Below, one piece after another: positions 652 through 61,826 of a DNA stretch of 64,000 bases; position 1 is the first letter of the stretch; every line of letters begins with the position of its first letter. Source of the DNA: Chamaelirium japonicum (Eukaryota > Streptophyta > Magnoliopsida > Liliales > Melanthiaceae); contig OX393553.1 of assembly GCA_947650365.1 (NCBI GenBank), positions 39,838,449 through 39,902,448 of the forward strand, written 5' to 3'. A model generated the notes under the pieces. It searched no databases. It was not told the DNA's origin and saw only the letters and a list, made by a program, of their open reading frames with translations. The position numbers and the translations under genes are program-made.

Positions 652-3600
652 CTGATGATAAATATACATAATTGGTCCTATTTTAATGCCAGTAACAACA
701 AGCGAGTGATGCATGAAATAAGTAAATTCTAAAACTTCTCTAGGGTAAGGTGATAAGTCTCACCATACATCAGTAAATTCTAAAACTTCTAGGGTCATCA
801 AATGTTCAAAACTTTATGGACCGTCGAAGCTGTTCAATTTGCTTAGCACATTTGATGACCCAAGTTTTAGAATTTGCTGATTTTTGACAAGGATGATCAC
901 CTTATCCTAAAGAACACATCCGCAAAAAATCATTAAATTCGAAAACCTCTAGGATGATCAAACACCATTGGGGTGTAGCATTCTTTGCTACACCCGGATA
1001 TATATATATATATATATATATATATATATATATATATATATATATATATATATATATATATATATATATATATATATATACAGAGAGAGAGAGAGAGAGA
1101 GAGATAGAGAGAGAGAGAGAGAGAGAGAGAGAGGAAAAGGGATGCTGGACTTGAGGTGCAGCGTCGTTGCTGCACCTCAGGCATTGTTTTACCTACCTAG
1201 AAGTTTTGGAATTTGATGAAATTTGGTGAGGGTGTTGTCTAGGGTAAGATGATCATCCTCACCAATTTTCATCAAATTCCAAAACTTCTAGGGGGGTCAA
1301 ATAGTCGAAGCAAAATCCGTCGTCCGCAGTCACCATTAAAATCTGCAGATTTTGCTTCGACATTTTGACCCCCCTAGAAGTTTTGGAATTTGATGAAAAT
1401 TTGTGAGGATGATCATCTTACCCTAGACAACACCCTCACCAAATTTTATCAAATTCCAAAACTTCTAGATAGGTAAACAAGCGAGAGGTGCAGCGTTGTT
1501 GCTGCACCTCGGGTGCAGGCTCCCTGTCCCCATATATATATATATATATATATATATATATATATATATATATATATATATATATATATATATATATATA
1601 TATATATATATATATATATATATATATATATATATATATATATATATATATATGGGTCAGGATCGGATGACCCATCAAAATTTTGACCCATTAATAACCC
1701 AGCACCCTTTGAGGCACCTAGAAGTTTTAGAATGGGCTGATTTTTTGTAGACATGTTGTCTATGATATGTTGATCATCCTCACAAAAAATCAGCACATTC
1801 TAAAACCTCTAGGTGCATCAAAGGGTGCTCTTCAAATCAACGGTTAAAATTGACAGTAAAAACCGTTGATTTGAAGTGCGCATTTGATGCACCTAGAGGT
1901 TTTAGAATGGGCTGATTTTTTGTGAGGATGATCAACATATCATAGACAACATCCCTACAAAAAATCAGCCCATTCTATAACCTCTAAGTGCCTCAAAGGG
2001 TGCTGGGTTATTAATGGGTCAAAATTTGCTGGGTCATCCGATCCTGACCCTATATATATATATATATATATATATATATATATATATATATATATATATA
2101 TATATATATATATATATATATATATATATATAGAGAGAGAGAGAGAGAGAGAGAGAGAGAGAGAGAGAGAGAGAATACGGGGTATGAGCTGACAGCCTAA
2201 TTCGAAATTAGGCTATCAGCTCTTAGCCGTCCGATTCCTACAGATCAAACCGTCCGATTAAAAAAAAAAAATCACAGCTGTAAAACAGCTGACCCCTCTG
2301 TCTCTCTCTCTCCCGACCACTCCCCCTCCCCGATGGTCCGACCACCCTCCACCTCTGGCAGTCCCTTCCCCTCCCCGACGGTCCGACCACCCTCCACCTC
2401 CAGCACTCCCTCCAACGCCGGCAGCCTCGCCTCCGACGCCGCTACTCCTTCCGGCAATCCCCCCCACTGGTCGGTGAATCGCACACATCGCCGCCGGAGG
2501 CGAGGCTATCGACGTCGAAGGGGATTGCCGTCGGAGGGGACCTCCGGTGATGAATCGCACACCTCTGGCAGCCTCACCCCCGACCTCCGGTGATGAATCG
2601 CACACATCTCGGCTGGCAAGGGGAAGGGAGGGGAAGGGGCTATGATCGACGCTGGAGAGGAGGGTGGTCGGATCGTCGGGGAGGGTCTGCCGCTACCAGA
2701 GGTGGAGGGTGGTTGGACCATTGGGGAGTGGTCGGGAGAGAGAGAGAGAGAGAGGGGTCACCGGCCGGCCACGTGGAGGTGCGGTTGGGACTACTGCCGC
2801 AGGCGCCGGAGGTGAGATCGGCGCCGGAGCTGTCCCCCTCCGCAGTAGCAGGCTGATCGGCGGCGCCGGAGCTGTCCCCCTGTCGGTCGTCGGGCATCAG
2901 CGCACGAGAGAGAGGGGGTTGGGCGTGAGGGTTGGAAGACAGCTGTATTACAACTGTGCTGTAATATAGCTGTAATACGCTTGATCTAAACCCTGTTTTC
3001 ACTACAAATCCAACGGCTGTTAGTGACAGCTTAAATAAATAAAAAAGCTGGCAGCTCACCTCCCGTTTTCTCTTTCTCTCTCTCTCTCTCTCTCTCTCTC
3101 TCTATATATATATATATATATATATATATATATATATATATATATATATATATATATATATATATATATATATATATATATATATATATATAGATAGATA
3201 GAAATGCTATAATGTGGTAAGTGCGGCACGGCACCGTAGTCGTCTGATGCACCGCAGTGTGCATGCGATGCATGTAGCGGGTGCATCAGATGGCTGCGGT
3301 GCCGTGTCGCATGTCGCATTATAACATACCCCTATATATATATATATATATATATATATATATATATATATATATATATATATATATATATATATATATA
3401 TATATATATATATATATATATATATATATATATATATAGAGAGAGAGAGAGAGAGAGATAATACGGGGTATGAGCTGACAACCTAATTTGAAATTAGGCT
3501 GTCAGCTGCAAGCTCTCCAATTAAACCCATCTGACCGTCCATTTATTAAAAAAAAAAACAGATGTAACCCCCCCCCCCCCCCCCCCTCTCTCTTTCTCTC

Positions 3601-6600
3601 TCTCTGCAGCGAGCCTCCCGACCACCCTCCACCTCCCCGACCAGCCTCCACTCCACCCCCGGCGCCGGCAGACCCCTGACCACCCGTCGATCGTAGCCCA
3701 CCTCCCCTCGGTGCTGATCGCAGCCCCCTTCTCCTCCCCCCGGTGCTGATCGCAGCCCACCTCACCCTCCACCAGCTCCTTCTCCTCGCCCTCCGATGCC
3801 GGCACCCCCTTCTCTCCCCTCCGGCTCCGGCACCGGTCGGGGGTGCCTGCCGGAGGGGGCGACTGTGATTCCCCAGTCGGGCCGGCCTGACGGAGGGGAA
3901 GGTGGCCGAAGATGGGGTGCCGGAGCCGGAGGGGAGAGAAGGGGGTGCCGACGTCGGAGGGGGAGGAGAAGGGGGCTGCGATCAGCATCGGGGGGAGGTG
4001 TGCTGCGATCGGCGGGATGTCGGGGGTCTGCCGGCGCCGGGGGTGGAGTGGAGGCTGGTTGGGGAGGGGGCGAGGTGGAGGGTGGTCGGGAGGCTCGCTG
4101 CAGAGAGAGAGAGAGAGAGAGAGAGAGAGAGAGAGAGAGAGGGGGGGGGGAGGGAGTGGATTACAGCTGTTTTTTTTTAATAAATGGACGGTCAGATGGG
4201 TTTAATCGGAGGGCTTGCAGAAGACAGCCTAATTTCAAATTAGGTTGTCAGCTCATACCTCCGTCAGGGGTGCCTGCCGGAGGGGGCGGCTGTGATTCCC
4301 CAGTCGGGCTGGCCTGACGGAGGGGAAGGTGGCCGGAGATGGGGTGCCGGAGTCGGAGGGGAGAGAAGGGGGTGCCGGCGTCGGAGGGGGAGGAGAAGGG
4401 GGCTGCGATCAGCACCGGGGGGAGGTGTGCTGCGATCGGCGGGCGGTCGGGGGTCTGCTGGCGCCGGGGGTGGAGTGGAGGCTGGTCGGGGAGGGGGAGA
4501 GGTAGAGGGTGGTCAAGAGGCTCGCTGTAGAGAGAGAGAGAGAGAGAGAGAGAGAGAGAGAGAGAGAGAGAGAGAGAGAGGGTGGGGGGTGGGGGTTACA
4601 ACTGTTTTTTTTTTTTTAATAAATGGACGGTCAGATGGGTTTAATCGGAGGGCTTGCAGCTGACAGCCTAATTTCAAATTAGGCGGTCAGCTCATACCCC
4701 ATGTTCTATATATATATATATATATATATATATATATATATATATATATATATATATATATATATATATATATATATATATATATATATATATATATATA
4801 TATATATAGGAAATGGGGAACACGGTCCTCCCGACTAGCCAACACGCTAGTTCTTTCTTCAATTTGGGTGTCATATGACACTTTTAACCGGGGTTAGGGG
4901 TTGGTCAAGGTTGGTACAGCCCTCCTAACAATGATCATGAAAAACAAAATTGAAAAAAAAAATATGCTAAGTAGCATTTTCAAATTACCCATAGCAAAGG
5001 CTATTTGCACACTACAGTTTATCGTTAAATTTGTCGACCGTTGATCGGGTTGTTTTAAGTTTTTTTTTTAGATTTTTTTTTTAAAATTTTGATCTAAGTA
5101 GAGTGGATTGACCATCCATAAAAAAATTATTAAAAAGTGTTATGTGGCACCCAAATTGATGGGAGGACTAGCGTATTGGCTAGTTGGGAGGACCGTGTTC
5201 CCTATTCCCATATATATATATATATATATATATATATATATATATATATATATATATATATATATATATATATATATATATATATATATATATAGGAGGC
5301 GGGGAGCCTGCACCTGAGGTACAGCAACAACGCTGCACCTTGACCTTGTTTTACCTACCTAGAAGTTTTGGAATTGGATGAAATTTGGTGAGGGTGTTGT
5401 CTAGGGTAAGGTGATCATCCTCACAAATTTTCATCAAATTCCAAAAGTTCTAGGGGGGTCAAATGGTCGAAGCAAAATCAGCCGTCCACAGTCACCGTTA
5501 AAATCTGCAGATTTTGCTTCGACCATTTGACACCCCTAGAAGTTTTGGAATTTGATGAAAATTTGTGAGGATGATCACCTTACCCTAGACAACACCCTCA
5601 CCAAATTTCATCCAATTCCAAAACTTCTAGGTAGGTAAAACAAGGCCGAGGTGCAGCGTTGTTGCTGCACCTCGGGTGTAGGCTCCCCGCCCCCATATAT
5701 ATATATATATATATATATATATATATATATATATATATATATATATATATATATATCCCTTTCCATAGGGTGTGGTTACCTATGGGTGTGCCCAAAAAAA
5801 AAAGATAAAAGGATAATACATGGATAAAATGACATGTAAAGGGAAATATAACATACTCTTAATACCATGCCTTAAACTCATGTTGGGAATCACATTGAGT
5901 TTGCAAAGAGAGTGAAAGCAAAACTGTTAGGTCGACCTACAAGTCACCGACTTGAAAACTCAATTGACCTGCAAGCAGGTTGGCCCGGAACATGCCAACC
6001 TGCAAGTAGGTAGATCAAAAAACTAGTCACCATACTGACATCTCGACCTCCCCCCTCCCCTGGAAAAAGGCGGAATAGTAACCGCCGATAGGAGAAAAGG
6101 AACACTCAGAGATAGTATAGCAACCTCGGAAACGTAACTAAAGTGGTGATCCTATAGTTTATCTGGAAAGCCAGATGATCCTGTCTTTTTGAGTGGAAGA
6201 CCCCATCTCCTTTACAGCCAGGCCTAAGCTCGAGCCATTCCTCTTCTAGCTAGGTATCTTTTTCTCCCGGTATAGGCCGAAGCTAGTTTGTATCATCCAT
6301 ACGAAAGGTCTTCTCCTTGAGTTCTTTTTCTAGCAGGAGAAGCTACATACACTAGTTCTTGAGCTTGCCTGAGTACTAAGTCTGCAAGAGGAATTGAGCA
6401 GCAAGCACGACCATGAAAAATCACGAGCATGAGCACCACAACTGCTGATGAGTCAAGGTGACGAAGGTGCAATGAGGTGATTAGTCCGACCAGGGAAACG
6501 ACTCTTGAGCGACAGTACTACTAAAAACCTTCGATGGAGAACTGTCAACTAAAGAGGCTGGCATGCAACTGGTAGCGTAACATGACAAAGCGATGTCGTA

Positions 6601-61526: not shown

Positions 61527-61530
61527 TATA

Positions 61531-61826
61531 TTTGCTGATCTTTTACGAGGATCACAATGGCTTAGATTCCACACCCACAAAAAATCAGCACATTCTAAAA
61601 CCTTTAGCTGTATCAAATGTACTCCTCAAGTTAACGATTGAAACGGACGATCGACAAAGCTTTTTTTATTTGATACACCTAGAAGTTTTAGAATGTGTTG
61701 ATTTTTTGTGGGTATGCGATCTCAGCCATTGCGATCCTCCTCGCAAAAAATCAGCAAATTCTGAAACTTCTATCGAACGGTTTGGATGACGGGTAAGAGT
61801 ATGAGTCAAAAAATGATGGTCTATGG
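61531..61826. mobile_element. (TA)n fold-back element, copy 14, left terminus missing
   Basis: The four-arm core (AGAAGTTTTAGAATGTGTTG and mirrors) starts directly after CATATA. A right terminus is present up to (TA)n at 61,827-61,896. Confidence 0.75.

Follow-up and report, generated by a model that had tools for sequence, protein, structure and literature searches.

We analysed a 64,000-nucleotide stretch of the Chamaelirium japonicum genome (Melanthiaceae; GenBank assembly GCA_947650365.1, contig OX393553.1, positions 39,838,449 to 39,902,448 of the forward strand; hereafter the window), in which 14 fold-back elements, numbered E1 to E14 in order of position, lie among runs of the dinucleotide TA, written (TA)n. 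An original prediction, made from the letters of the window, had described them as a single superfamily of (TA)n-associated, non-coding fold-back elements with a nested palindrome plan, and this description holds, with copies numbering in the thousands. The elements are very probably non-autonomous miniature inverted-repeat transposable elements (MITEs) of the Mutator-like element (MULE) kind whose insertion targets are TA-rich tracts, mostly (TA)n. Target duplications of 9-10 bp at two loci, together with a FAR1-MULE partner for one end family, point to Mutator and not to Tc1/mariner, with which a comparison had been proposed. The finding belongs to a published kind, because MuTAnT, SaTar and Ac-mMITE elements already show such features, and it has one unusual feature, which is a common core under unrelated ends.

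Target sites, target duplications and a MULE partner

In the window, a (TA)n run of at least 20 bp lies within 60 bp of 13 of the 14 elements on one side or more, and of 10 on both sides, in keeping with the expectation that nearly all would be found in or adjoining (TA)n. Beyond the window, we examined copies of E4, the reference element of an end family termed F1. Of its best 30 genome copies (counting the one in the window), 29 are flanked by TA runs left and right; on the right side of one locus, L033, there is ATA alone and then the next element. The exact F1 end GGGGGCGGGGAGCCTGCACC occurs 1,127 times in the genome, with G or C at position -11 in 32 cases. We then counted regions of at least 150 bp belonging to the core, the palindromic interior that the elements have in common. 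Removal of the L006/L007 overlap reduced the 120 regions found to 118 distinct ones. Of these, 88 are flanked on each side by a TA run (at least 4 units, no more than 170 bp away), 27 have such a run on a single side, and 3 have none; the overlapping L002, L003 and L009 are omitted from the count. Most core copies are thus flanked in the manner of (TA)n-targeting MULE MITEs, in a sample that is F1-enriched by design and in which L069-L088 were picked for G or C near one end.

Two loci outside (TA)n allow the target duplication to be read. At L093, an F1 copy, the left flank TTTTCGAAA and the right flank TTTCCGAAA match at 8 of 9 positions, and at L005, which carries another end family, TCTAGATGAA flanks both sides with 10 of 10 matching. 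A third locus, L076, is consistent with a duplicated ATATATATA. The duplication screen returned 19 rows, of which one was accepted (L005), the others being judged by eye to be palindrome or simple-repeat artefacts. MULE target duplications are 8-11 bp in length (PMC6446971, available in part), and the duplications of 9-10 bp, observed at two loci and in two end families, are therefore of MULE length.

A partner element was found where a scored FAR1/MULE match (C1:5004582-5005490) adjoins a cluster of arm words, the 17-nt repeats of the core described below. In the 10-kb stretch L089, a 9,242-bp element (L089:15-9256) carries inverted repeats of ~490 bp (1-490 and 8811-9271, 76% identity). This one element is flanked by a TA run on each side, with 14 bases of it in view at the left and 98 (9257-9354) at the right. 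Its frames contain the Pfam domains FAR1, MULE and SWIM in that order, a set that fits group 36 as tabulated in the available part of PMC6446971. An F1 fold-back has its left end nearby at C1:4998083, with words up to 4998415; if 400 bp long, it would stop ~30 bp before the MULE start at 4998515. A genome search with the MULE end gave 38 matches, comprising 10 inward-facing pairs (6.7-27.8 kb), 3 short pairs, 11 single ends and 1 extra. Besides L089 itself, the long pairs include those at C11:35596460-35604501 and C9:3712050-3720138. Among the matches listed, a scored FAR1 or MULE match falls inside at least 7 of the 10 long pairs, as judged by eye. The short pairs (L090-L092), which span 378, 758 and 786 bp, have (TA)n on both sides and ends of the same kind around different interiors, in which no arm word was found at up to 3 mismatches. 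Four TA-bounded elements of 668-828 bp, read in six frames, have longest open frames of 97-246 amino acids, some of them low in complexity.

The outermost 70 bp of either L089 repeat were compared with the ends of 12 core elements (all but E1 and E14), using 1000 shuffles as the null. Both ends of E2, E4 and E13 scored 26-52, above 1000 of 1000 shuffles each time (for E2 the top score was 52 against a null maximum of 22), while the left end of E7 scored 31 with the right repeat (0 of 1000 shuffles) and 21 with the left repeat (2 of 1000). Ends in common with a MULE-transposase element are thus seen for the F1 end type only. A partner with similar termini, of the kind that was to be looked for, was found for these ends, but the ends of eight other tested elements are not tied to L089; because its ends match the F1 type alone, a MULE for the other end families is assigned by analogy.

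Several observations weigh against the assignment to MULEs. Just two clear duplications were found outside TA, and the L089 copy is interrupted by a stop. The match to L089 ends is absent in E3, E6, E8, E9, E10, E11 and E12 (best 31 of 1000 shuffles), as in three TA elements without the core, which likewise never did better than 31 of 1000, and it is marginal in E5, with 3 and 16 of 1000 for one repeat and 206 and 189 of 1000 for the other. No arm word was found in the L089 terminal repeats, so that the core is not derived from this partner; L089 as a whole has one arm word at up to 3 mismatches. Finally, 30 MULE loci (the best MULE-domain matches), taken with 1.5-kb flanks, were devoid of arm words, TA runs and known ends.

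We propose that a transposase would bind the terminal repeat in trans, and that the MITE would be cut and pasted into TA runs with a 9-10-bp duplication, after which the TA run may lengthen. Other end families would presumably be served by other MULEs. The palindromic core, as its pattern of occurrence shows, is a module that end families have exchanged, the likely route being template switching or gap repair that involves palindromic neighbours within one (TA)n cluster.

The arm word, the core and its ends

A 17-nt word, AGAAGTTTTRGAATTTG, is present exactly or with few changes in most window elements. Four words in the order + - + -, with starts 74 bp apart within a pair, constitute the plan of most complete window elements, which are thus fold-backs of four similar segments. 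The word count (up to 5 mismatches) was above all 100 shuffles in 10 of the 14 elements and merely equalled the shuffle maximum in those at 1654, 34566, 46463 and 48215. In the 1.52-Gb genome the exact word has 20,158 matches (10,100 + 10,058), where the reversed control has 0. Two-word arms, meaning two exact words 50-64 bp apart, were found at 5,094 places, again with 0 for the control; because the two-word arm is palindromic, the same places are counted on both strands, and its length is 91 bp in all places among the matches listed. Hundreds of copies had been named as what would support the idea, and thousands are counted.

BLAST (E <= 1e-5) connects each of the 14 elements with others of the group, for the most part through the core (approximately positions 64-333), while the outermost 45-60 bp usually remain unaligned between families. 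The idea that all 14 share one four-arm architecture therefore needs to be amended. The four-word plan is present in most of them and the core links them all, but they comprise many terminal-repeat families that have the core alone in common, and the elements at 46463 and 48215 are diverged, with 2 and 3 words at 4-5 mismatches. The terminal hairpin that had been ascribed to each element, GAGGTGCAGC...GCTGCACCTC, is likewise present in some families and limited to those.

The core module of E4 (element at 5295-5694, core at 5358-5631) runs from CCTAGAAGTTTT to AAAACTTCTAGG, and it is the part common to elements with other ends. Core identity is 0.88-0.94 among E4, E5, L031_1930, L086_164 and L031_2444. 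The 45 bases at either end of the same five elements show 0.49-0.58 identity, where shuffled sequence gives a median of 0.51 and a 95% point of 0.60. Alignment to E4 (at least 85%, at least 180 bp) is obtained for 65 core regions, 47 of them end to end and 18 in part. Eight of the 18 carry F2 (E5-type) or F10 ends, and we read the other partial alignments as an F1 sub-type or truncated copies. On the 400 positions of E4, the alignment limits are 64-337 in L012, L086 and L004, 65-337 in L036, 67-334 in L031:2495 and 50-331 in L020. The junction between core and end is sharp and symmetrical, at CCTAGAAGTTTT / AAAACTTCTAGG. Because short pieces (GGGATGCTG and GCAGC...GCTGC of the hairpin) are common to E5 and F1 ends, the sequences allow that F2 may be a remodelled F1 end; between F10 and F1 ends, no common pieces are visible by eye.

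Single-linkage clustering of TA-bounded segments (clusters of at least 2 elements, accepted wholly or partly) placed the core in ten end clusters (1, 2, 3, 4, 5, 7, 9, 10, 11 and 12), and several end clusters have GGGTC.GG at the tip in common. Two end types have probably been chained together in cluster 2. Clusters 1, 4, 5 and 9 occur also without the core, the elements of L089-L092 having been scored as core-less without BLAST, and F10 ends were seen with the core alone (8 rows, 7 distinct loci). Core elements with two F1-type ends comprise 25 of sub-types a/a, 20 a/b and 1 b/b, in a sample chosen for sub-type a; the a/b elements indicate that an element need not have the same end on both sides.

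We read this pattern as end exchange around a palindromic module, or else as uptake of the module by several kinds of MULE ends. Tentatively, the 274-bp palindromic core may behave as a module that passes between MULE MITEs of the (TA)n-targeting kind and that has gained new, unrelated ends at both sides at least twice recently; both sides would change, since in a palindrome an alteration of one end can be copied into the opposite end. A credible contender, though short of even, is that the core goes back to an older, distinct palindromic element which different MULE ends captured in Pack-MULE fashion, so that the origins of core and ends would be independent. Capture would fit the sharp and symmetrical junction at the word itself, the L089 repeats that have no arm word, and the fact that some of the same end types carry other interiors. 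It is opposed by the sequence beside the E4 junction, which is inverted and not a direct repeat and thus gives no sign of nested insertion.

Folding and the remaining alternatives

Local pairing (spans up to 110 nt) is at least 2.9 standard deviations above 20 shuffles in 12 of the 14 elements, and the nested palindromes are therefore real. In the elements at 34116 and 47746, local pairing over these spans was not stronger than 20 shuffles by that margin. Overall shape was judged from the base pairs of the unconstrained lowest-energy fold. For the 11 complete elements this fold is a single long rod, with at least 90% of pairs crossing the middle. The truncated elements have a mixed fold, the pairs crossing the middle amounting to 44/77 in E1, 55/112 in E7 and 69/102 in E14. 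A two-level hairpin had been proposed as the common fold of these elements. Its nested palindromes are found, but no two-level cruciform is seen in the rods of the complete elements, so that in these folding models the two-level hairpin describes how the sequence is laid out, whereas the preferred fold is a different one.

The great length of the inverted repeats best accounts for the long hairpin. We consider it improbable that the nested hairpin has been selected as a functional RNA or DNA structure, such as a source of small RNA. The hairpins are strong (fold z-scores against shuffles of -45 for E5 and -20 for E6), and over the 189 base pairs of a majority sequence drawn from 39 F1 copies, there are 40 compensatory double changes against 11.3 expected for all variants and 6 against 0.84 expected (shuffle maximum 3) for variants in at most 2 copies, an excess that holds also for variants in up to three copies. 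However, strong folding is seen in an unrelated TA element as well (z -12), and single-copy variants give 1 compensatory change against 0.21 expected, which with a shuffle maximum of 2 is not beyond shuffles. Shared ancestry may thus explain much of the compensatory excess. By the same result arm homogenisation is unproven, and mirrored substitutions, considered as proof of arm-to-arm copying, were dropped to a lead.

Spread without a transposase, through segmental duplication or unequal exchange between (TA)n tracts, appears very unlikely. The elements do cluster in TA-linked arrays, and homologous recombination into microsatellites has been proposed for SaTars (PMC5907723, available in part), but the ends are precise, the two non-TA copies have duplications, and both flanks are common to 1 of 465 F1 locus pairs. 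On the latter count we reject segmental duplication; some flank match is present in 90 pairs, as expected among repeats. Least tenable is an origin as Tc1/mariner-type (Stowaway-like) MITEs, whose TA target would account for the (TA)n association and for the TA-rich flanks seen nearly everywhere, since we reject it on the duplications of 9-10 bp in place of a 2-bp TA duplication at both readable loci and it is opposed also by the G-rich ends and by the F1 ends in common with a FAR1-MULE element.

Elements of the window and related systems

The 14 elements sum to ~5.2 kb with the limits set here and have 28 (TA)n or (AT)n runs of at least 20 bp beside them; no genes were seen in them, in agreement with the view that they encode no protein. 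Three members, at 719, 34566 and 61531, are truncated. E1 (723-997) is a left-truncated copy with (TA)n on the right and four words at 723, 774, 860 and 934. E2 (1134-1531) has a four-arm core at 1199-1466 between F1-type ends, one of each F1 sub-type. The F1 reference E4 has its junctions at positions 64/337. In E3 (1654-2050) the core lies inside GGGTCAGGATCGGATGACCC ends with (TA)n on both sides, and in E5 (33635-34027) a core that is 91% identical to that of E4 is combined with different ends, GAGGAATGGGATGCTGCCTATCAAAGCAGC. E6 (34116-34501) has the core inside GGGTCGGGATCCAGAAA ends. E7 (34566-34864) has an F1-type left end, its right part being missing from a (TA)n run on, and E8 (34891-35278) has the core inside GGGCAGGGATACTCTTACT ends, of a type that elsewhere occurs also without the core. 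E9 (46463-46847) is a diverged relative, chiefly in the inner core, with GTGCGGCGGATTAACATG ends, 2 words at 5 mismatches and 68-73% identity over 117-232 bp to other cores; E11 (48216-48600), with GGAAATGGGAAATGAG ends, is another, at 71.6% over 190 bp to E8. The core is found inside GGGTCAGGTTCAATGG ends in E10 (47746-48131) and inside CGGGGTATAGGCTGGCGGCC-type ends in E12 (53760-54139). E13 (61132-61527) has the core, F1-type ends and a short TA run on the left side only, of just 13 bp, and E14 (61531-61826) is a left-truncated copy with (TA)n on its right side.

Further (TA)n-bounded inverted-repeat elements without the core are present in the window at 46880-47265, which has the F2 end type in common with E5, and at 4809-5209 and 47347-47632. 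At 48995-50172, another TA-associated inverted-repeat element with GGGAATAGGGAACACGGTC ends forms ~3 head-to-tail units of ~392 bp each, with few or no bases in between and TA flanks, as in a MITE turning into a tandem array. Tandem arrays of 98-bp units (10 copies) and 200-bp units (3.7 copies) lie at 24282-25265 and 23484-24230, respectively. At L069, L079 and L086 the G-rich element end bears a run of 10 to 16 or more G, compared with five in most copies, which suggests slippage at the terminal G tract. At eight loci (L071, L072, L073, L076, L077, L082, L087 and L088, near position 1500), a small hairpin and ACTAG directly precede the TA run, so that these ends, which we take to resemble Helitron 3' ends, and the MITEs occupy one common TA run.

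The closest known system is MuTAnT of Medicago truncatula (PMC4486113), a fold-back MITE with a (TA)n target, four similar segments, GGGG-type ends, 9-bp duplications in non-TA copies and a mudrA partner. The nested plan had been thought to lack a prior description, but "four similar segments" and foldback already appear in the legend of Fig. 1 of that paper. In both systems the MULE partner is flanked by TA runs, being Jittery-like in MuTAnT and of the FAR1-MULE-SWIM type here. The descriptions set the two apart in that MuTAnT has 218 copies in two subfamilies, whereas here there are thousands of copies and many end families with one core.

SaTars of guayule and rice comprise many families stacked in microsatellites, rice Micron being rSaTar2 (PMC5907723). 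They resemble the present elements in that several families stand side by side in (TA)n as non-nested arrays, with 10-bp duplications in non-TA copies and microsatellite-flanked MULE partners. They differ in that the available text describes neither a nested palindromic plan nor a core common to end families; the words palindrome, hairpin and foldback were not found in it. Ac-mMITEs of pineapple are also very numerous (TA)n MITEs in clusters, with 9/10-bp duplications in a minority (PMC8449440). Their two families are alike in their ends, whereas the elements here are alike in their core, and according to the available part of that source no autonomous partner was found in pineapple. MULEs with multiple terminal repeats (PMC3310237) similarly have repeat modules stacked inside outer ends, but these are tandem end copies, in contrast to the unrelated ends around one palindromic core seen here. 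In a survey of 207 genomes, Micron-like MITEs were mainly in Poaceae and Rosaceae (PMC12550479). The modularity of one core and unrelated ends is the unusual part; in the titles and abstracts returned by literature searches, no description of one interior under unrelated MULE ends was found.

MITE families are usually delimited by their terminal sequences, and each MITE depends on the transposase able to read these. In the present case the ends vary around a conserved interior, so that a classification by ends would split one lineage into many, and a classification by interior would merge elements probably moved by different transposases. Through the partner assignment, one more FAR1-type MULE is linked to TA-targeted MITEs. 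If the core is indeed a transferable module, end swapping would free fold-back MITEs from dependence on one transposase.

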